From positions 1-21,962 of the IMG/VR virus record IMGVR_UViG_3300046718_000451: a DNA stretch of 21,962 nucleotides; one strand, written 5' to 3'. Positions 2,672-21,962 of this stretch are shown piece by piece. The position numbers and the translations under genes are program-made. This stretch comes from a virus. The notes under the pieces were generated by a model. The model ran no database searches. It was not told the DNA's origin and saw only the letters and a list, made by a program, of their open reading frames with translations. Every line of letters begins with the position of its first letter. Position 1 is the first letter of the stretch.

Positions 2672-3535
2672 TTAGTTCACCGCCTTGCCAGAGTTCCATG
2701 ACTGGAGCTCAACTGTTATGTCCCCGGAACTGAAAGAAGTGACGTTCGCGCGAATGAACCGGACCGCTTTGACGTTGATGCGCTGGCCGGTGGCTCCGGG
2801 CGAGGCGGTCGGGTTCGTGACCGTGCCCTCCGTCACCCAGGTGGTTCCGTCCATCGAGGATTCGATGGTGACGGTGTTCGGCGTGGCCGGCGCCTTGAAC
2901 GTGGAGAGGCAGCAGACGTACGCGAGAGACTGGTTCAGCGTGTAGCCGGCGTCGATAGATGCGGCCGTGACCTGGATCGCGTCCTCGATCGCCACGGAGT
3001 TGTTGAACGTGTCGTTCGCAGTGTCGCGGATCGTGTAGGGCAGAGACGCGCCGGCCGTGATGACGACCGTGTTCGACGGCGTGTAGATGCCCGAGAAAAA
3101 GAGCTCGCCATTCTGCGTCGGCGGGGCCACGTTCGTGCTCGTGGGCGTCGTCGTCGGCGTAGCCGTTCCGTTTCCGACGTTCTTATCGTTCGGGGTCGTG
3201 CTGTCCGCGGCGCCCGTGTATTCCGCCACGAAGATCGAGCGGTTCGACTGAGCGGCGCCCCACGTCGCCGTCACGACCGGCGTGCCGGCTCCGGTGCTCT
3301 TGAAGAAGTAAATGTCGCCGCGCACTGCCCAGGTGGCGTTGCTCGAGGCCGCCGTCCACGCGCCATTCACCGAGTCCGAAACGCCCGTAGGGCCGCCGAG
3401 GTTGTCGGAGGTGACGAACGCGACCAGGAGGTTTCCAGCCGTCACGGCCGAGCCGAACGTCGCCGCCACGGTCGTGGCCGAAACGTTCCCGGCCGGGAAC
3501 CCGTGAGCCGCTTTGACGAACGTGCCGAATGCCAT
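2672..3535 (-). CDS. Putative virion fibre or decoration protein, two-domain
   Basis: This 287-residue protein has two parts. Residues ~1-215 form a beta-rich region with VTAGNLLVAFVTSDN, VSDSVNGAWTAA, IYFFKSTGAGTPVVTATW and FVAEYTGA, a pattern I associate with jelly-roll or Ig-like repeats in surface and phage proteins. Residues ~218-287 are the 70-residue domain that also forms the protein encoded at 2356-2670. There is no signal peptide, which fits a virion rather than an exported protein. The start overlaps the upstream stop as TAATG. The arrangement suggests a modular exterior protein in which the C-terminal domain serves attachment, trimerisation or ligand binding; which of these cannot be told from sequence. 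Confidence 0.62.
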   Translation of the reverse strand: MAFGTFVKAAHGFPAGNVSATTVAATFGSAVTAGNLLVAFVTSDNLGGPTGVSDSVNGAWTAASSNATWAVRGDIYFFKSTGAGTPVVTATWGAAQSNRSIFVAEYTGAADSTTPNDKNVGNGTATPTTTPTSTNVAPPTQNGELFFSGIYTPSNTVVITAGASLPYTIRDTANDTFNNSVAIEDAIQVTAASIDAGYTLNQSLAYVCCLSTFKAPATPNTVTIESSMDGTTWVTEGTVTNPTASPGATGQRINVKAVRFIRANVTSFSSGDITVELQSWNSGKAVN

Positions 3536-9805: not shown

Positions 9806-9809
9806 GGGT

Positions 9810-9980
9810 CTACCCGTGTCCGACCAGGCCCATCAGGTAGATGAACCCGAGAACGATGCCGTAGAGGATGAACGCGAACCCGCCGATTTTCGACGCGCGC
9901 GCCACGAACGGGCTCGTGGGCGCGAGCATCTCCACGATCAGCGAGGCGACGATGAGAGCGACGACGAGCAGCGGACTCAC
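9810..9980 (-). CDS. 56-residue two-helix membrane protein
   Basis: The GTG at 9980 opens a short frame ending in TAG at 9810-9812. The product starts MSPLLVVALIVASLIVEMLA and contains two hydrophobic stretches, residues 3-19 and 33-53, separated by a short basic loop (ARASK). The GTG overlaps the upstream stop (GTGA), the junction type used throughout this phage, and GGAG lies about 13 bases upstream. The next gene begins four bases after its stop. Size and topology are compatible with a small holin or antiholin. There is no sequence family I can name. Confidence 0.6.
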   Translation of the reverse strand: MSPLLVVALIVASLIVEMLAPTSPFVARASKIGGFAFILYGIVLGFIYLMGLVGHG

Positions 9981-10339
9981 GGGATGGCCGGGGGCTCCAC
10001 CGGCGGGACGACGGGCGGGACGACGGGCGGCTCGGCCGGCGTGTCGGCAGCTTCGGCGTCCGCGATCTGCTTGAGCGCGGCGTCGGCTTCGTCCGACATG
10101 CCCTTCACGATGACCTGGTCCGTGGGCGTGAGGGTGCCGTTGTTGAGAAGCGCGTCCAGCTTGGACTTGAGGCTGTTCGTCAGCGTGACGAGGCCCGTGA
10201 CGGCTGCGGCCAGGGCGTCCTCTTTCACCTTGAGGTCATCGAGTTCTTTGGTCATGTGCGTGATTCCTTTCAGAATTTGGTCGAGGCGGCTGTCCTCGGC
10301 CGGATGGATGAAAACGTGGAGCTCACAACGAATGTTCAC
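9977..10339 (-). CDS. Small coiled-coil phage protein with Pro-rich tail
   Basis: This 120-residue protein, read from GTG 10339, begins with CELHVFIHPAEDSRLDQIL, continues through a helical region (MTKELDDLKVKEDALAAAVT) and ends in a repetitive Pro/Val tail (VVPPVVPPVEPPAIP). The pattern of a short strand with a His-containing motif, then D-L-x-x-I-L, then a coiled coil recalls small tail-proximal proteins I have seen annotated as hypothetical in many phages. GTG 10339 overlaps the upstream stop (GTGA). An alternative ATG at 10255 (residue 29) has a clearly better ribosome binding site, so two products are possible. Function is unknown. Confidence 0.6.
   Translation of the reverse strand: MNIRCELHVFIHPAEDSRLDQILKGITHMTKELDDLKVKEDALAAAVTGLVTLTNSLKSKLDALLNNGTLTPTDQVIVKGMSDEADAALKQIADAEAADTPAEPPVVPPVVPPVEPPAIP
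10256..10270 (-). promoter_or_regulatory. Internal ribosome binding site before an alternative ATG (10255)
   Basis: The minus strand reads AAAGGAATCACGCAC before an in-frame ATG, differing by one base from the capsid gene's initiation region over AAGGAATCACG(A/C)ACATG. It makes ATG 10255 (92-residue product) a serious alternative or additional start for the coiled-coil protein. Confidence 0.45.
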
Positions 10340-10871: not shown

Positions 10872-11068
10872 GGACACCCCCGTAGTGCGAGCTCGAGGGC
10901 CCGAAATGCACCCGCGAGGCGGAACGACGCGAAAGAGGCGCCCCGAGGGCGACGCGACCGGATGATGTACCGCCGCAACCGTCCCACCTGGGCCTCCTGC
11001 TGGCCGCAAGCATCGGCACGGGCCGCCCCGGGCGCTAGCGGATTGACGCGCCGGAACGTGACGCTCAC
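10868..11068 (-). CDS. 66-residue basic hypothetical protein
   Basis: The interval between the terminase nuclease gene and the lipoprotein gene holds a frame that starts with GTG at 11068, overlapping the terminase stop (GTGA), and ends with TGA at 10868, overlapping the lipoprotein start (ATGA). The product (MSVTFRRVNPLAPGAARADA onwards) is Arg-rich with no recognised motif and two Cys residues. The composition resembles random GC-rich translation, so sequence alone is weak evidence. Its support is the exact fit to the overlap pattern at both ends. Without it there would be a 193-bp gap in an otherwise gapless stretch. Confidence 0.45.
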   Translation of the reverse strand: MSVTFRRVNPLAPGAARADACGQQEAQVGRLRRYIIRSRRPRGASFASFRLAGAFRALELALRGCP

Positions 11069-11763
11069 CTTCCGAACCGCATTCCCGACCGGCCGCGCTC
11101 GATATCGGCCATCGCGTTGCGAAACTCGATCGCCCGGGCCGTCAGGTTCGTCATCGGGGCCGTCACCATCTTGGCCGCGGCCTCCTTGAGCGGCACAACC
11201 GCTTCCTGGGCCGACGTGTAGATGCCGTACCGGGCCGAATCGCGGCAGTCGTCCCACACGTCGTTGGTCTTTTTCGCGTCCTCGGCGTGGTTCGGGTAGT
11301 CGCGCACCGCAGCCGGCAGCGCCTTGATGAGCTCGGCACACCGCGGCGAGATTTTCCAGCGCCCTTGCTGTAGGAGCTGATACATGAAGTTCCAGCCGAG
11401 CCGCCGATCCCCCGGCCCGGCCGCGGCCGCCGTGATTCCACGGAGCTCGAACCCCTTTCCGGCCAGGGCCGACTCGAGCTCGATCGCCACGGTGCGGTCC
11501 GAGGTCTTTCTCGAGAACACGTCCGGGCCGGCGTAGAGCGCCGTGACGGCAGCCCGCTCGTTGAACCCGCCGGGCTCGAGCGCCTCCGGAGTCCGCTCAA
11601 CCCAGCCGGCCGCGATGTCGGGCGCCGTCGTGTGCGACGTGACCCACTCGCGGTAGGTGAAGTAATTCTCGCCGTCCGTCGCGTGCCAGTACGTCACCGC
11701 GGCGTGGTCGAAGCCCCAGTCGAAGGAAATGAACCGCGGCCACCAGGGTTTCAGAACGATCAC
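11065..11763 (-). CDS. Terminase large subunit, nuclease part (separate cistron)
   Basis: This 232-residue protein corresponds to the C-terminal RNase H-fold nuclease of large terminases, which cuts concatemeric DNA during packaging. It begins MIVLKPWWPRFISFDWGFDH, matching the start of that domain, with the first metal-binding Asp at residue 15. A second acidic position is Asp81 in AGPDVFSRK, and the C-terminal motif DDCRDSARYG (residues 171-180) fits the usual D-x2-D-x2-R-Y pattern. The start is GTG 11763, overlapping the stop of the ATPase cistron (GTGA). There is no ATPase motif here; that lies entirely in the upstream cistron. The two products together have the length of one normal large terminase. 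Either the protein is naturally split, or one base is missing or extra in the sequence. Confidence 0.82.
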   Translation of the reverse strand: MIVLKPWWPRFISFDWGFDHAAVTYWHATDGENYFTYREWVTSHTTAPDIAAGWVERTPEALEPGGFNERAAVTALYAGPDVFSRKTSDRTVAIELESALAGKGFELRGITAAAAGPGDRRLGWNFMYQLLQQGRWKISPRCAELIKALPAAVRDYPNHAEDAKKTNDVWDDCRDSARYGIYTSAQEAVVPLKEAAAKMVTAPMTNLTARAIEFRNAMADIERGRSGMRFGR

Positions 11764-12590
11764 GCCGCGCGCTCCTCGACCATTTCCTCGACGTGCTTAT
11801 CGGGCCGGAAGCAGTCGAAGAACTGCCCGGCGAAAATGTCCCAGCGCCCCCAGAGCCACGCGTCCCGCAGATCGGCCGGCAGCGCGTTGAGCGTTTTGCC
11901 GTAGTCGCTGTTGCGGATCAGGTACTCGGCGCGCTTGTCGTCCGGCCACGCGCGGTACTCCTGGTGCGCGATGCGGTCGCGCGCGAGGGCGTCGCGCACC
12001 CACATGATGTTGTCCCACGCGTACGCTTGGATGAACGCCGGGTTGAGCGCGGCCTCCTCGGGCGTCGTGAGCCGGTCGATGAACAGGCGCTTGACGTACG
12101 CGTGCCCGACGCCGCCCGGGTTGAACGTGAGCACGCGCTTCGGCACGAACCCCGAGACGGTCGAGCGGCAGCACGAGAACAGGATGGCGAGCTCCTGCTC
12201 GGTCTGGTCGGTCGCCTCGTCAATGCCCAGGTCGCCGTACTCGCGGCCGCGAAACTCCATGATGTCCTGGAGCGTGTCGGCGTACCGGAACAGCAGCGTC
12301 GAGTTGCCCGGCAGCATCAGGGCATTGTGCTTTTCGCTCCAGTAGTCGCGGTACAGGTCCGGCCATTCCGCCATCATCTTGGCGATGTGCGTCTCCCACA
12401 GGAGCGGCGACGTGCGGCGGAAGATCACGCCATTCGTCCCGGGATGCCGCAGCCGGCGGATGATGAAACATGCGCGTAGCGCGTGAGACTTTGCCCCGCC
12501 ACGAGCGCCGCCGTAGCCGATGAACTGCGAGCTCGAGCTCTCCATGAGGTCGAGCAGCCCGCGCTCTTTCGGTTGCAGCCCGAAGTCCAT
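11760..12590 (-). CDS. Terminase large subunit, ATPase part (separate cistron)
   Basis: This 276-residue protein is the N-terminal ATPase engine of the packaging terminase. A candidate adenine motif is at Q6. The Walker A-type loop is GYGGARGGAKS (residues 25-35, K34), Walker B is YGDLGIDEA (118-126, D124/E125), and the coupling motif is LTFNP (154-158). The protein continues through the linker region with GRWDIFAGQFFDCF, then stops with ERAA after HVEEMVEE. In ordinary terminases the next residues would be the nuclease domain, which here begins in the overlapping downstream cistron. ATG 12590 directly follows the upstream stop (TGA-ATG). The motor would dock on the portal and translocate DNA. 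Confidence 0.88.
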   Translation of the reverse strand: MDFGLQPKERGLLDLMESSSSQFIGYGGARGGAKSHALRACFIIRRLRHPGTNGVIFRRTSPLLWETHIAKMMAEWPDLYRDYWSEKHNALMLPGNSTLLFRYADTLQDIMEFRGREYGDLGIDEATDQTEQELAILFSCCRSTVSGFVPKRVLTFNPGGVGHAYVKRLFIDRLTTPEEAALNPAFIQAYAWDNIMWVRDALARDRIAHQEYRAWPDDKRAEYLIRNSDYGKTLNALPADLRDAWLWGRWDIFAGQFFDCFRPDKHVEEMVEERAA

Positions 12591-14006: not shown

Positions 14007-14299
14007 GGCTTCGGACGCTGCCGGCGCCGCGGCGGTCGGAGTCTGCGGCCCTGCTCGTCGCGGGCGACGTGGATCGAGCCGTTCCAGCCGACGCCGTACA
14101 CCGTGCCGTCACTCGGCCGGAACACGGCGCCCGGCACGGCCTGGTGCAGCGTGCCGGCCAGCTTGCCGGCGTTGAGCGTGCGCTGCCAGCGGTTCCACAT
14201 CGCTTTGTCGAAGTTGAGCGTCGCCTCGCGGATGACCGGGGGCGGCTCGAGCTCGGGCAGCGGCAGCGAGGTCTGGACGGGCCCGGGCTCGTCAGCCAC
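14003..14299 (-). CDS. Hypothetical protein in packaging cluster
   Basis: This 98-residue protein starts at GTG 14299, overlapping the upstream gene by 8 bases. It has a Pro-rich N-terminus, a central part FDKAMWNRWQRTLNAGKLAG and DGTVYGVGWNGSIHVARDEQ, and a strongly basic end (GRRLRPPRRRQRPKP). The basic tail suggests DNA or RNA contact, or is simply a disordered end. I recognise no family. It is placed between the candidate small terminase and a beta-helix protein, so a packaging accessory or small virion protein are both possible. Confidence 0.55.
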   Translation of the reverse strand: MADEPGPVQTSLPLPELEPPPVIREATLNFDKAMWNRWQRTLNAGKLAGTLHQAVPGAVFRPSDGTVYGVGWNGSIHVARDEQGRRLRPPRRRQRPKP

Positions 14300-14759
14300 G
14301 CGGGGCGGCCTCGGGGTCGTCCGGCACCAGTTCGGCCTCCACGGCGCCGGCGGCGAGCTCCTGGGCGCGTTGTGGCGAGACGCGGCCCTCGAGCATCGCG
14401 TCCAGATCCACGACGTTCACGACGAACATGCCGGACTGCCGAACGTTCACGTCCTTCGGCACCGGGCCCTCGAGACGGTCGAGGGTCGCGTTGAATTGCG
14501 ACACTCCGTAGGGCTCCTGGGCCGTGATGCGCTCGAACGCGGCGATGGCCTGGTGATCCGCGGCGCACAGCTCGCGGCCGCGGGCGCGCTTGAAGTTGCG
14601 GATCACGTCGGCCGCGTCCGTGCCGGCCGTGTCGTTGAGGTCCGCGAGCGCGCGCGATGGCGAGCGCACGAGCTTCGCCCGGCCGCCAGGATTGCCGGAA
14701 ACGCCAGGCGGGAACGGACGGCCGGGACCGTTCGTGCGCTGCGCGCTGCTCTCAGCCAC
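14292..14759 (-). CDS. Candidate terminase small subunit (DUF5681-like N-terminus)
   Basis: This 155-residue protein has GPGRPFPPGVSGNPGGRAK at residues ~11-29, the F-x-P-G-x-S-G-N-P-x-G-R signature of DUF5681-like proteins, many of which occur next to large terminases and bind DNA. The following ~60 residues are helical (SRALADLNDTAGTDAADVIR), and the C-terminal ~50 are acidic, with a possible oligomerisation helix (SPQRAQELAAGAVEAEL). Position upstream of the large terminase supports a DNA-recognition subunit that selects phage DNA and feeds the motor. The start is GTG 14759, with only a weak ribosome binding site. The packaging role is inferred from motif and synteny. Confidence 0.6.
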   Translation of the reverse strand: MAESSAQRTNGPGRPFPPGVSGNPGGRAKLVRSPSRALADLNDTAGTDAADVIRNFKRARGRELCAADHQAIAAFERITAQEPYGVSQFNATLDRLEGPVPKDVNVRQSGMFVVNVVDLDAMLEGRVSPQRAQELAAGAVEAELVPDDPEAAPRG

Positions 14760-14794: not shown

Positions 14795-15091
14795 TCAGTT
14801 CTTGACGCTACCGCTCGTGACGGGCGGTCGGCGCGGCAGCCGGCGGGAGCGTCGGGCCCGAAGGTAGCCCTTGCCGTATGCCTCCTCGAGCGGCACCTGG
14901 GTGTACCGGCGGCGCACGAGAAACCCTGGGCGGCAGTCTGGGCACTCCACGAGGGTGACGCGGTGCACCACGACCCGGACGGCCACGAGGCCGGCGAGGT
15001 CGAGGATGAGGCGCTCGGCCCCGGCGTGGGAGACGATGGCCTGGTCGATCGCCCTGGCCCGAAGGGAACCGCACGCGGCACAGAGGCTCAC
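14795..15091 (-). CDS. Zinc-ribbon-like small protein, first gene after the iteron region
   Basis: This 98-residue protein has two Cys pairs, CAAC (residues 4-7) and CPDC (~51-54), separated by about 43 mostly hydrophobic and charged residues, consistent with one zinc-ribbon site. A Gly/Arg-rich basic tail follows (GYLRARRSRRLPRRPP), suggesting nucleic-acid binding. The start is GTG 15091, with GGGAG about 10 bases upstream. It is the first gene after the only substantial intergenic region and heads the packaging/structural block, so it could be a transcriptional regulator of late genes or a replication accessory. Neither is shown by sequence. Confidence 0.55.
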   Translation of the reverse strand: MSLCAACGSLRARAIDQAIVSHAGAERLILDLAGLVAVRVVVHRVTLVECPDCRPGFLVRRRYTQVPLEEAYGKGYLRARRSRRLPRRPPVTSGSVKN

Positions 15092-15102: not shown

Positions 15103-15246
15103 GGACGCGGACGCACTTCTCACAAAATTACCCCATGTTCTGAACTGCGGAAGCGCGTCCCTTCCCTAAAGGGTCGGGACGCACTTCGCACTTCCAGAAA
15201 GAACTGCGTCCCGGACTCACTTCGGACGCGGTTCGGACGCACTTCA
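15103..15246. repeat. Iteron-like cluster: seven copies of an 11-bp motif
   Basis: The main intergenic region between the helicase stop and the zinc-ribbon gene contains repeated GGACGCACTTC. Exact plus-orientation copies are at 15109-15119, 15177-15187 and 15235-15245. Variants are GGACTCACTTC at 15213-15223 and GGACGCGGTTC at 15224-15234, so the last three copies are perfectly tandem at an 11-bp step. Inverted variants are GAAGCGCGTCC at 15150-15160 and GAACTGCGTCC at 15201-15211. An A/T-rich patch at 15121-15130 is the least GC-rich stretch here. Such clusters serve as replication-initiator sites or as operators. On the minus strand TAATTT follows TTCCGC at 17-bp spacing, a weak promoter match I do not rely on. 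Confidence 0.7.
15150..15187. promoter_or_regulatory. Large inverted repeat within the iteron region
   Basis: Arms at 15150-15161 (GAAGCGCGTCCC) and 15176-15187 (GGGACGCACTTC) pair over 12 positions with one mismatch in DNA (a G-U wobble is possible in one of the two RNAs). Inside them a further CCC/GGG pair (15164-15166 with 15171-15173) closes a TAAA loop. The arms are two of the 11-bp motifs in opposite orientation, so a dimeric protein could bind here. No U-run follows on the minus strand, so a terminator is less likely than an operator or an origin structure. Confidence 0.55.
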
Positions 15247-16377
15247 CGACTTCGGCCTGTAAAGCATTCCGCCGCCCCTTCCGGACCTGGGCAGCTTGAC
15301 GAGGGTGCCGTCCTTGACGGCCAGCTTGAGGGCGGCCCGGACATCGAACGCGCGGGCCTCGACTTCGCGCTCGAGCTCGCGGCCGGAGGCGCCACTGGGG
15401 AAGTCCCGGAGGGCCACGAGGATGTCCTGGACGATGGCGCGCAGGGCGTCCGTTCTGGCGATTGCGGCGTCGGCTTCGGCCGCGGCGGCATCGACGGCGA
15501 CGAACCGGGCGCGCGGGTAGTCCATCGCCATGGTGAGGCTGAAAGTGTTTTCGACGCCCATGCGGGACTTCGGGCAGATGAGCTTGACCTGGGGCGAGTC
15601 TTTCGTCGGCTTGCCGTCGAGGTGCAGGATGAGGTCGGCCATGAACTCGATGCTCGAGGTTTCCAGGCCGGCGGCGAGGGGGTCGGCGCGTTCGTCCTCG
15701 TTCTTGGACCGATACGAGCCGCGACCGACCTGGGACACGACGACGACGATGGCGCGAAAGCGCATGGCGAGATCACGGAGCTCCACGAGGAGGGCCGAAA
15801 TCGCCTGGCGGCGGTCCTGGCGGGACGTGGTCTTGCTCGAGCGCACCACCTGGGCAGAGTCCACGAGGTAGACGCGCTGCAGCCCCTTCGGCGCGATGCA
15901 ATCGAACTGCTCGAACAGGAACTCTACGGTCGATTCGGGGCGCGATGGGTCGAGGAAGCGAAAGAAGGGCGAGCCGTTGATGGCCTCGCGGGCAAGGGTA
16001 GCGCCTTCGCCCGACAGCATTCGGGCGCGGTCGATGCCAAGCTGTTGGCCGATGCGGACGGCGGCGCCTGGCATTCCCTCGTCGGCGTAGAGCACGGCCA
16101 CGGCGCACTTGTGGGCGAGCTCGAGAACGATCTGGGTGGCGAGCATGGTCTTGCCGATGCCGGGTTTGCCCTGGACGATCGTGAGCGTGCCGGCGTGGAG
16201 GCCGCCCTCGATCTTCTCGTCAAGGCACGGGAGTCCCGTCGAGAAACGTTCCCCCACGTTCCGGCGTCCCACGAGAACCGCCTCGAGATCCAGCCACATC
16301 GAGAGTCGAAGGTTCGCCTGGAGATCCTCGAGGAGCTCCTGATACTCGGGCGGTTCGTTCTGGCCCTGGTCGTCCAC
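15244..16377 (-). CDS. RecA-fold ATPase, putative DnaB-like replicative helicase
   Basis: This 377-residue protein has FSTGLPCLDEKIEGGLHAGT before the Walker A GKPGIGKT (70-77), an acidic residue after beta-2 (YADEG, ~98-101), Walker B VYLVDSAQ (169-176, D173) and a sensor-like VVVSQVGRGSY (212-222) resembling the DnaB SQL region. The C-terminal ~80 residues look like a winged-helix module (SGRELEREVEARAFDVRAAL). No primase or DnaB N-terminal domain is present, so it is shorter than DnaB (about 470 aa); a RepA/Twinkle-type hexameric helicase or a RecA/KaiC-like ATPase are alternatives. The start is GTG 16377 with AAGGGA upstream. Its stop lies inside the last iteron copy, which links it to a possible origin. 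Confidence 0.75.
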   Translation of the reverse strand: MDDQGQNEPPEYQELLEDLQANLRLSMWLDLEAVLVGRRNVGERFSTGLPCLDEKIEGGLHAGTLTIVQGKPGIGKTMLATQIVLELAHKCAVAVLYADEGMPGAAVRIGQQLGIDRARMLSGEGATLAREAINGSPFFRFLDPSRPESTVEFLFEQFDCIAPKGLQRVYLVDSAQVVRSSKTTSRQDRRQAISALLVELRDLAMRFRAIVVVVSQVGRGSYRSKNEDERADPLAAGLETSSIEFMADLILHLDGKPTKDSPQVKLICPKSRMGVENTFSLTMAMDYPRARFVAVDAAAAEADAAIARTDALRAIVQDILVALRDFPSGASGRELEREVEARAFDVRAALKLAVKDGTLVKLPRSGRGGGMLYRPKS

Positions 16378-19787: not shown

Positions 19788-20380
19788 GCCTTCTCCTTCG
19801 CGTGGCGGGCTTCGTTCTGCCGCAGCTCCAGCATGTGAAGAAGTTCCACCTCGGGGAAATCGCTGCGTCGCTCGGCGATGAGCCAAGCGGCGACCGCATC
19901 GCACTCGGCGATGCGACCCGCGAGCGTCGCCTCGTCCCGCTCCCGCGTGAGTTCTGCGACGCGGGCCTGAGCCTTGTCGGCGCGGGCAGCGGCGGGAGAC
20001 TCCAGCTCGTCAACGATCCTGCCGAGCCGCTCGACCTCGGCGCGCAGCGCGGCGTCGTGGGCGAGTAGGCACTTCCGAATGCACGCGACAGAGATCACCT
20101 GATTTGGCTTGGCGCGATCGGAGAAGTCGTTGATCTGCTCGATGTACTCATCCCTCGTCAGCACCTTCCCTGCCTCCCCATCGGCGCTCGGGGGCGGGGT
20201 GGGCTTCCTTGTCGCCCACCATTTGCAGTCGTTCGCGTGGTGAGTGACGCACGCGCACGTCGCGCTCGGGGGCGGGGCGGGGGGCACGTAGCGGCGGCCG
20301 TGGGCTGGACAGTTGCGGTCGATACGCTCGGCTGGCGTGCCGACGAGAACGCACGCGCACTTCTCGTTGGTGTCGCTCAT
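19784..20380 (-). CDS. Protein with duplicated Cys modules and coiled coil
   Basis: This 198-residue protein starts at ATG 20380 with GGAGG five bases upstream, overlapping the upstream stop (ATGA). The first ~78 residues hold two related modules: CACVLVG...RNCPAHG...PPPSA and CACVTHHANDCKWW...PPPSA. Each has CxC plus another Cys and nearby His residues, so each could bind zinc. The modules end in the same 16-bp DNA sequence (see repeat). Residues ~115-165 form a coiled coil (AEVERLGRIVDELESPAAAR onwards), and the end is helical. Function is unknown; a small DNA- or protein-binding early factor is plausible. Confidence 0.6.
   Translation of the reverse strand: MSDTNEKCACVLVGTPAERIDRNCPAHGRRYVPPAPPPSATCACVTHHANDCKWWATRKPTPPPSADGEAGKVLTRDEYIEQINDFSDRAKPNQVISVACIRKCLLAHDAALRAEVERLGRIVDELESPAAARADKAQARVAELTRERDEATLAGRIAECDAVAAWLIAERRSDFPEVELLHMLELRQNEARHAKEKA
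20184..20277 (+). repeat. Pair of 16-bp direct repeats inside a coding region
   Basis: GCGCTCGGGGGCGGGG occurs at 20184-20199 and 20262-20277, 78 bp apart (a whole number of codons), and encodes PPPSA on the minus strand at the end of each Cys module. It is best explained as the trace of an internal duplication of the gene, or as convergent Pro-rich linkers. Confidence 0.55.
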
Positions 20381-20691
20381 TTGTCCTCCATCCCCGGCCG
20401 CCCTGCGGCGATCCATTTATCTACCGCCACGTTGAGCGCGTCGGCACTCTCGGTACTCGTCTCGCTTGCAAGTCCCATGTCGAGGAAGTCGAGCGCCTCA
20501 ACCTTTTCCAACACCGCCCGCACCGTGGCGGGGAGGGGGCGAGGAGCGGCGAGGCGGAGCCACTCGGCTTCGCTGAATCCCGTCTCTTCGTATCCCATCG
20601 AGCAACCGGACTTCGAGCATTGGAATGAACGTCCGTCTCCAAACGGCTTACTTTGGCTTCCACAAAGAGGGCACGGCGGGAGGGCGCTCAT
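20377..20691 (-). CDS. Zinc-ribbon protein, Lar-like (putative restriction alleviation)
   Basis: This 104-residue protein starts at ATG 20691, overlapping the upstream stop (ATGA). It opens MSALPPCPLCGSQSKPFGDG and continues RSFQCSKSGCSMGYEE, then a FSEAEWLRLA segment. CPLCG, a second pair C-x4-C, and a following acidic/Trp motif match the Lar-type zinc ribbons (CPFCG...C..CG...A..WN) common in phages. Rac prophage Lar modulates EcoKI modification and alleviates restriction. The C-terminal ~50 residues are helical and extra to the Lar domain. With the orphan methyltransferase three genes downstream, an anti-restriction role is reasonable, but many Lar-like ribbons have no tested function. Confidence 0.55.
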   Translation of the reverse strand: MSALPPCPLCGSQSKPFGDGRSFQCSKSGCSMGYEETGFSEAEWLRLAAPRPLPATVRAVLEKVEALDFLDMGLASETSTESADALNVAVDKWIAAGRPGMEDK

Positions 20692-21068
20692 CGGGAGACC
20701 TCGGGGTTCGCCGCGAGAAACACCTTGATCTCCTCGCCCGGACGGAACCACTGCTTTTTCATGAAGTGCCCGAGCGCGATGATATGTCCTCCGAGTCCCT
20801 CCGTCTCAACGCGCACATGCTTACCCTTCAAGTCTTCCCACTTCTCGACGCCGACCGTCTCCATGACGCGGGCGACCCACCAGCCCATGAGCGCGGACGG
20901 GAGGCGCTTCTTCTTGTCGTGGTCGTAGGGGCCGTCGAGCGTGTAGCCGCCGAAGCCGCAGCCCCATCCGTCGCCCTTGACCGTGATGTACGACGACGCG
21001 ATGCCGTGATCCTCGATCCCGAGCATCGTGCTTTCGATGACGCCGTTCTCGATCTCGGTTTCCCTCAT
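20688..21068 (-). CDS. Conserved-type phage hypothetical protein
   Basis: This 126-residue protein starts at ATG 21068, overlapping the upstream stop (ATGA). It has IENGVIESTMLGIEDHGIAS, then KGDGWGCGFGGYTLDGPY, then VMETVGVEKWEDLKGKHVRV and IIALGHFMKKQWFRPGEE. I recognise this layout (ESTMLGxEDHG, GFGGY.LD, VGVxxWExLKGxxxRV) from many phage and prophage proteins annotated as hypothetical. No catalytic role is known to me. It is a globular, soluble protein of the early block. Confidence 0.65.
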   Translation of the reverse strand: MRETEIENGVIESTMLGIEDHGIASSYITVKGDGWGCGFGGYTLDGPYDHDKKKRLPSALMGWWVARVMETVGVEKWEDLKGKHVRVETEGLGGHIIALGHFMKKQWFRPGEEIKVFLAANPEVSR

Positions 21069-21280
21069 CGCGTCCCCCGAGACGGCAGCGGAACCTCGAC
21101 GTTGGAAAGCCACCGTGCGCACGCTTTTCTGTCGAGAAGCCGCGCCGTCTTAAGCGCCTCGTATTCGCGCGGCGAGAGAAGGCACGGGATGTCCCATGCG
21201 CCCCACCCCATCTTGCAAGCCGCGACGAGTAGCACGGCGTCCGTCACCGTGTGTTTGGCAGGCTTCTTCTTGGCGGTCAT
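21065..21280 (-). CDS. Small hypothetical protein
   Basis: This 71-residue protein starts MTAKKKPAKHTVTDAVLLVA at ATG 21280, overlapping the upstream stop (ATGA). A basic N-terminus is followed by a helical, mildly hydrophobic core (DAVLLVAACKMGWGAWDIPC) and a polar helix (SPREYEALKTARLLDRKACA). The last part resembles a helix-turn-helix-like arrangement, but I see no clear recognition helix. The family is unknown. Its stop overlaps the next start (ATGA). Confidence 0.55.
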   Translation of the reverse strand: MTAKKKPAKHTVTDAVLLVAACKMGWGAWDIPCLLSPREYEALKTARLLDRKACARWLSNVEVPLPSRGTR

Positions 21281-21393
21281 TTCGGCTCCCGCTTGATAAG
21301 CATGATCTCTCGGGCACATGCGACGACGATGGCGATTACCGCAAGGCACAAAAGCCCGATCAGGACACGCAGAAGGAAAATCCAGGCTGTCAT
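21277..21393 (-). CDS. 38-residue membrane peptide
   Basis: ATG 21393, overlapping the nuclease stop (ATGA), opens a 38-residue frame. Residues 4-26 (WIFLLRVLIGLLCLAVIAIV onwards) form one transmembrane helix with a single Arg inside, followed by CAREIMLIKREPK. Its stop overlaps the next start (ATGA). Both overlaps and the membrane character support a real microprotein. The role is unknown; early phage membrane peptides often inhibit host functions, which here is speculation. Confidence 0.55.
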   Translation of the reverse strand: MTAWIFLLRVLIGLLCLAVIAIVVACAREIMLIKREPK

Positions 21394-21962
21394 TCTGCGC
21401 CTCCGTTCACGAGAGCCTGACCCTGGGCGCACCACGACAGGGCTTGACAATAATCGGCGCATCGCGTGGACTGCCCCGGCCTCTTCTCCACGATGCCCTT
21501 TGGAAGCGTTGAAGCGAACCTAGCGGCTTCGGTCGGTTCATCAAACAGCTTGGTCGCCTTGGCAGCTCCCAGCTTCATAGCGGCCCACTTGGTGGGCTTC
21601 TCCCATCTCTCCTCGGCTGAGCACTCGGGAGGCAGTACGGCCGCGTGCATGGCGAGCCGTTCCTTGACGTACTTCTCCGTCTCGTCCATCTCCCACATGA
21701 CGATAGGGACCACAACGACGCGCTCGGGGTAATCCTCGTTCTTCTTGGATTCGCCCTTACGCCAGTCGCCCACGAAGAGATCGACTTCGAGGGAAGCGAC
21801 GTGACCGCCGTTACGCACCCTGATCCAGCGCAGGACGTTGAGCTGGGCATCCCACTCGCGTTTGCCCAGGAGATAGGCCCACACGGAGGAATCCTTGAAG
21901 TCGATCAGCCTTCCGTCCCCTGTCGTGTAGAGGTCAGACTTACCAGTGATCGTCCACGTGTC
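21390..21962 (-). CDS. PD-(D/E)XK nuclease, RecB/Cas4-like (5' end outside window)
   Basis: The frame is open to the window edge (190 residues visible). The first residues, DTWTITGKSDLYTTGDGRLIDFKDSSVWA, carry the core of the fold: GKSD with the first metal-binding Asp, then L-I-D-F-K (the D/E-x-K element), followed by EWDAQLNVLRW, which fits the Q-containing motif of RecB-family nucleases. The C-terminus has C-x3-C-x5-C (CADYCQALSWC), resembling the Cys triad that holds an iron-sulfur cluster in Cas4/AddB enzymes, though the spacing differs. Such phage enzymes act as DNA exonucleases in recombination or replication. The N-terminal part is missing, so the fourth Cys and any motif I Glu/His cannot be checked. 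Confidence 0.75.
   Translation of the reverse strand, partial: DTWTITGKSDLYTTGDGRLIDFKDSSVWAYLLGKREWDAQLNVLRWIRVRNGGHVASLEVDLFVGDWRKGESKKNEDYPERVVVVPIVMWEMDETEKYVKERLAMHAAVLPPECSAEERWEKPTKWAAMKLGAAKATKLFDEPTEAARFASTLPKGIVEKRPGQSTRCADYCQALSWCAQGQALVNGGAE

Follow-up and report, generated by a model that had tools for sequence, protein, structure and literature searches.

What is the function of a cluster of short repeats that lies between the helicase gene and the packaging genes of a phage? The cluster was found in virus record IMGVR_UViG_3300046718_000451, of which a stretch of 21,962 bp (66.8% GC, hereafter the window) was analysed; its coherent gene set lies on the minus strand. The reading that we favour, with modest confidence, is that positions 15109-15245 are a helicase-linked phage replication origin, made of iterons and a hairpin that form one module with the adjoining helicase gene.

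A 44,068-bp IMG/VR contig (3300046454_000617, L038) represents the same virus, with 100% identity across 20.6 kb of the window, and was for this reason excluded from the evidence on conservation. Its first 101 bp correspond to positions 19866-19966 of the window; beyond them, the contig (positions 1-1265) carries a divergent version, about 81% identical in parts, of window positions 19866-21962. Because the start of the contig matches the window over 101 bp and then diverges, the genome of this virus is probably circular or circularly permuted, with a size of about 43.3 kb, and its early region probably exists as two strain variants. The same contig encodes (6088-14625, minus strand) a 2845-aa polyvalent phage protein with ART-PolyVal (ADP-ribosyltransferase) and RadC-like JAB domains.

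The array consists of seven copies of the 11-bp motif GGACGCACTTC, five direct and two inverted, with three identical copies and three at an 11-bp step, as the initial annotation had described. On the plus strand, the distal copy (iteron 1, 15109-15119), iteron 3 (15177-15187) and iteron 7 (15235-15245) match the motif without mismatch, and iterons 5 (15213-15223, GGACTCACTTC) and 6 (15224-15234, GGACGCGGTTC) differ from it by one and two mismatches, respectively. The inverted copies, iterons 2 (15150-15160, GGACGCGCTTC on the minus strand) and 4 (15201-15211, GGACGCAGTTC on the minus strand), carry one mismatch each. The consensus has GGACGC as its core and a near-invariant TT. Strict phasing is limited to the tandem trio formed by iterons 5 to 7, with its 11-bp step; the remaining spacings are 12, 24, 27 and 41 bp, and iterons 4 and 5 abut, giving a 23-bp imperfect palindrome. 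Iteron 7 overlaps the helicase stop codon (15244-15246), and the earlier placement of the start of the region at this stop was right to within 3 bp. Read along the minus strand, the order is the helicase stop within the first copy, the tandem trio, the inverted copy, the hairpin, an AT-rich stretch and the last direct copy, followed by a 98-aa zinc-ribbon-like gene, a 155-aa gene and, later, the terminase genes. To call this the only real non-coding region was an overstatement, as a 171-bp gap at 9806-9976 is also free of any minus-strand ORF of 60 aa.

Repeats of this kind could in principle arise by chance in high-GC DNA, and variants such as GGACGCGCTTC are indeed found singly elsewhere. 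Nonetheless, the search for further copies showed that the motif is not dense in other places: across 44 kb, two isolated copies with at most one mismatch occur outside the array, at window position 10147 and, beyond the part shared with the window, at position 2266 of the 44-kb contig. Non-overlapping copies per 160 bp number five at the array versus a maximum of four elsewhere in the window. Furthermore, the best 11-mer family (at most one mismatch) has six overlapping members in the array, versus never more than three in 500 first-order Markov sequences simulating the array region. With an array that exceeds every simulation, and with site-specific constraint in an independent phage (see below) that already refutes it, a chance origin of the repeats has next to no likelihood.

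Iterons 2 (inverted) and 3 (direct) lie in the two arms of a strong hairpin (15142-15194, minus strand) that comprises this pair of copies plus extra sequence and that is absent from the initial annotation. It begins about 50 nt beyond the helicase stop, its apex CCC-TTTA-GGG is conserved, and its predicted ssDNA fold reaches -21 kcal/mol (z -5.9 versus shuffles, and z -5.4 for the equivalent hairpin of the relative described below). A strong conserved hairpin at this distance from the stop might act in the transcript, as a terminator or as a processing or stability element at the 3' end of the helicase mRNA, in which case the repeats would be secondary. Such an RNA element is improbable: the stem has no T tract, a terminator scan was negative, no Rfam family matched, and the tandem trio, the distal copy and the conservation outside the hairpin would be left unexplained. 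The adjacent AT-rich stretch (15117-15146, 63% AT over 30 bp in a genome of about 67% GC) belongs to the top 0.09% among 30-bp windows of the genome and is a possible unwinding or promoter region. Cumulative GC skew has no turning point at the array and is uninformative.

A scan of viral contigs with a pattern of three tandem CGGACNCNNTTC units retrieved an independent phage contig, IMGVR_UViG_3300044507_000024 (10,673 bp, hereafter L177), which ends inside the helicase. All seven sites are present in L177, in unchanged order and orientation and at near-equal spacing, and the hairpin is kept as well; comparison with relatives, a check that had been proposed for the array, thus found the repeats retained in this one phage. 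The tandem copies lie at 10229, 10240 and 10251-10261, the last again overlapping the helicase stop codon; they are followed by an inverted copy at 10217, a direct one at 10192, an inverted one at 10165 and a degenerate distal direct copy (GGACGCGGTTT) at 10123. The two helicases share 64% aa identity over their last 137 aa. At the DNA level, 35 of 38 positions are identical in the hairpin block (15150-15187) and 40 of 46 in the block of inverted and tandem copies, versus 45% in the spacers, 55% at third codon positions and 59% (27/46) at fourfold sites; compared with the helicase fourfold sites, the binomial p is 5e-6 for the hairpin block and 3e-5 for the other. Constraint thus sits on the iterons and the hairpin, while the spacers and fourfold codon sites look unconstrained. 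An overlapping reading frame was considered as the cause of this conservation and rejected, no frame being common to both phages across the array. Judged from this sequence comparison with one independent relative, the array and hairpin are a phylogenetic footprint. Scans with the helicase profile recovered only L177 among viral contigs and no match in genome contigs, a search with the hairpin pattern returned only the window virus and L177, and a DNA search of isolate phages gave no match.

In both phages, the array separates the early genes, with the helicase, from the late packaging genes. The portals of the two phages are from different families, being of PF04860 type in L177 and SU10-like in the window (PF23899, just below the cut-off), the L177 terminase has no tblastn similarity to that of the window, and the first gene past the array in L177 is unrelated to the 98-aa gene of the window. 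Since portal, terminase and downstream gene all differ, the array moves together with the helicase rather than with the packaging block; conservation of array and hairpin goes along with that of the helicase, not with that of the late genes. A replication function is argued for mainly by this linkage, which also speaks against a cos or pac site and against the zinc-ribbon protein as the binder. The region had been interpreted at first as either a replication origin or a switch for late transcription, and the first half of this interpretation is strengthened by an array kept with the helicase in L177 next to an unrelated late block. Dozens of phages resemble the late block of the window (TerL and portal relatives, 25-41% identity), and no copies of the array were found among those examined; in these late-block relatives, DnaB_C was matched in one of 30 records (G006) and AAA_25 in G006 and G028.

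In the window as in L177, the terminase genes lie downstream of the array, a location that would also suit a cosB- or pac-like packaging site bound by the small terminase subunit; the 155-aa gene at 14292-14759, with its GNPGGR-type N-terminus, could encode this subunit. Terminase sites should, however, change along with the terminase, and the array blocks are 87-92% conserved despite a different portal and no detectable terminase similarity, which makes a packaging role quite unlikely.

The large terminase of the window is encoded by two genes, for the ATPase (11760-12590) and the nuclease (11065-11763), with a 4-bp overlap, and that of a relative (L046) by a single 518-aa gene; the division could be a real split or an assembly frameshift.

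In addition, a position where early genes meet late genes, as seen in the window and in L177, is what would be expected of a regulatory region. The array might accordingly be a multi-operator control region at which a phage regulator, possibly the helicase as an autorepressor, or an activator, switches transcription from the early to the late block. The AT-rich stretch is followed immediately on its 3' side by the distal copy (15109-15119), and 11-bp TTCGGAC arrays are found just upstream of AlbA_2/HATPase_c_4 genes of Bacilli, for which autoregulation is the simplest guess. However, a scan for sigma-70 type promoters found no consensus promoter at the array, the sole AT-rich, promoter-like stretch is not conserved in sequence in L177 (14/31 identical), the gene next downstream is not the same in the window and in L177, and a hairpin inside the array is atypical of operators. 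With no consensus promoter and a non-conserved AT-rich spacer, the late-switch half of the first interpretation gained no positive evidence, and we consider a control region rather unlikely, although it is the leading alternative to an origin.

Similar arrays are present in other, unrelated genomes. In uncultured Bacilli, arrays of about 11-bp TTCGGACAC repeats lie just upstream of AlbA_2/HATPase_c_4 genes (L181, 2616-2730; L188, 7534-7577; L192, 5857-5889) that carry C-terminal winged helices, and in an archaeon (L191, 4148-4202) a TTCGGACAC array lies inside an AlbA_2/HATPase_c_4 gene, just before the winged helix. These TTCGGACAC arrays resemble operators or binding platforms that different phyla have in common. 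Two phage contigs (L174, 11855-11890; L176, 5950-5985) contain GGACCCTTTTC repeated in tandem every 11 bp within the coding sequence of an HTH_36-like, replication-initiator-like gene. The recurrent association of tandem arrays of about 11-bp TCGGAC repeats with winged-helix or HTH genes lends general support to a winged-helix binder, in a small sample that was gathered with a window-derived pattern and alongside other scan matches that have no link of this kind; it is compatible with origin and operator roles alike. Repeats of other steps were seen in two distant relatives: L160 (terminase about 35% and portal about 24% identical) has four TGCGGACCACA iterons at steps of about 13 bp (3192-3241), within the 5' part of an HTH-like gene and upstream of the terminase, and in L163 TGTCCGGTCA occurs three times in 12-bp steps (90-125), upstream of the late genes.

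Which protein, then, would bind the iterons of a helicase-linked origin? The initial annotation pointed to a small gene nearby, a proposal that found no support: the zinc-ribbon-like protein (14795-15091, minus strand, 98 aa, CxxC...CxxC) is the product of the next downstream gene, lies outside the conserved unit and has no counterpart beside the L177 array. Of the proteins scanned with Pfam, PHROGs or NCBIfam, none was recognised as an initiator, and no HTH_36-type initiator was found in the window virus. The helicase itself (15244-16377, minus strand, 377 aa) is of the DnaB/RecA-fold (SF4-type), with a Walker/DnaB_C core at residues ~42-290 (Pfam DnaB_C 9.6e-17, AAA_25 2.2e-7, matching at residues 45-287; PHROG 19 replicative helicase 4.7e-27). 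Its C-terminal ~65 residues (~312-377) are strongly conserved in L177. The full-length model is poor (pLDDT 39.7), and the usable model comes from the C-terminal piece only, which is predicted with moderate confidence (pLDDT 77.7) to fold as helix-helix-strand-strand. Foldseek gave no significant match to this piece (best E 0.18); its top, non-significant ranks, many of them winged-helix proteins, include PefI, RPC34, RTP, linker histone H1, ArsR and PurR. The C-terminus matched no PDB sequence and no Pfam family, and profile comparison detected no homology to the AlbA_2 winged helices found beside similar arrays. As the Foldseek matches are non-significant, the C-terminus is plausibly, rather than demonstrably, a winged helix. 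Through this putative domain, the helicase would be a better candidate binder than its zinc-ribbon neighbour. The 11-bp step of the iterons suits winged-helix proteins stacked at one per DNA turn, an arrangement reported for BldC and discussed in PMC11963761.

From these observations, we infer the origin function, the winged helix, binding by the helicase and the role of the hairpin, which could be combined as follows. The winged-helix-like domain at the C-terminus of the helicase would bind the seven 11-bp sites; another initiator is a less likely binder. In the tandem trio, whose sites are one helical turn apart, subunits would be aligned along one face of the DNA; once bound and stacked, they would melt the neighbouring duplex so that the helicase ring can be seated. 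The hairpin would be extruded as the DNA opens and may in turn provide an assembly or priming site. DnaB-type replicative helicases normally require a separate initiator and a loader. It is possible, and we propose it tentatively, that the origin is self-contained, with a DnaB/RecA ring helicase that, via its own C-terminal winged helix, loads itself onto iterons and a hairpin located 3' of its gene and dispenses with both.

Parts of this arrangement are known from other replicons. In bacteriophage P4, the alpha protein unites primase and helicase in one polypeptide and belongs to the SF3 helicase superfamily, and the repeats of the P4 origin occur in both orientations. Alpha binds the origin iterons through its own winged-helix domain and then unwinds the DNA (PMC4234260). 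The region described here resembles the P4 origin in its short repeats, but the window helicase is, unlike alpha, of DnaB/RecA type (DnaB_C/AAA_25 only), has no recognised primase domain and carries a winged helix that is only putative. In plasmid pRN1, the key element of the origin is a stem-loop that begins 54 bp past the stop of the helicase gene, on its 3' side, and a similar origin was proposed for phage BIP-1; the pRN1 helicase is an SF3 enzyme with a C-terminal winged helix and a primase-polymerase, and its origin is devoid of iterons (PMC4234260). The window helicase gene is likewise followed by a stem-loop, about 50 nt past the stop, but together with iterons and with a helicase of DnaB/RecA type. 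The archaeo-eukaryotic primase and SF3 helicase that define pRN1 and BIP-1 were not found among the scanned proteins. In RSF1010, the hexameric helicase RepA has a RecA fold. Its oriV combines iterons with small hairpins and involves three proteins, RepA, RepB' and RepC (PMC4234260). Iterons, a hairpin and a RecA-fold helicase are likewise associated in the window virus, and the scanned proteins, many of which match nothing, included none that was recognised as RepC- or RepB'-like. Lambda ori-O and HTH-type phage initiators have tandem iterons inside their own initiator gene. Tandem short iterons in the replication module are a feature shared with lambda ori-O, but the repeats of the window lie outside the coding region except for the stop codon and adjoin a helicase. 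In the mechanism proposed above, the region works like P4 and pRN1, and it is a member of neither because their defining helicase or primase features are missing. A literature search of incomplete coverage found no account of such an arrangement with a DnaB-type helicase.

The unit of helicase and array is present in two phages that differ in their packaging genes. If the origin is indeed self-contained, the helicase gene and the array of about 150 bp would constitute a minimal origin-and-loader system, and this two-part unit would offer a compact test case for the seating of ring helicases. More generally, 11-bp TTCGGAC-type tandem arrays combined with winged-helix genes would provide a searchable signature of origins or operators in uncultured phages.
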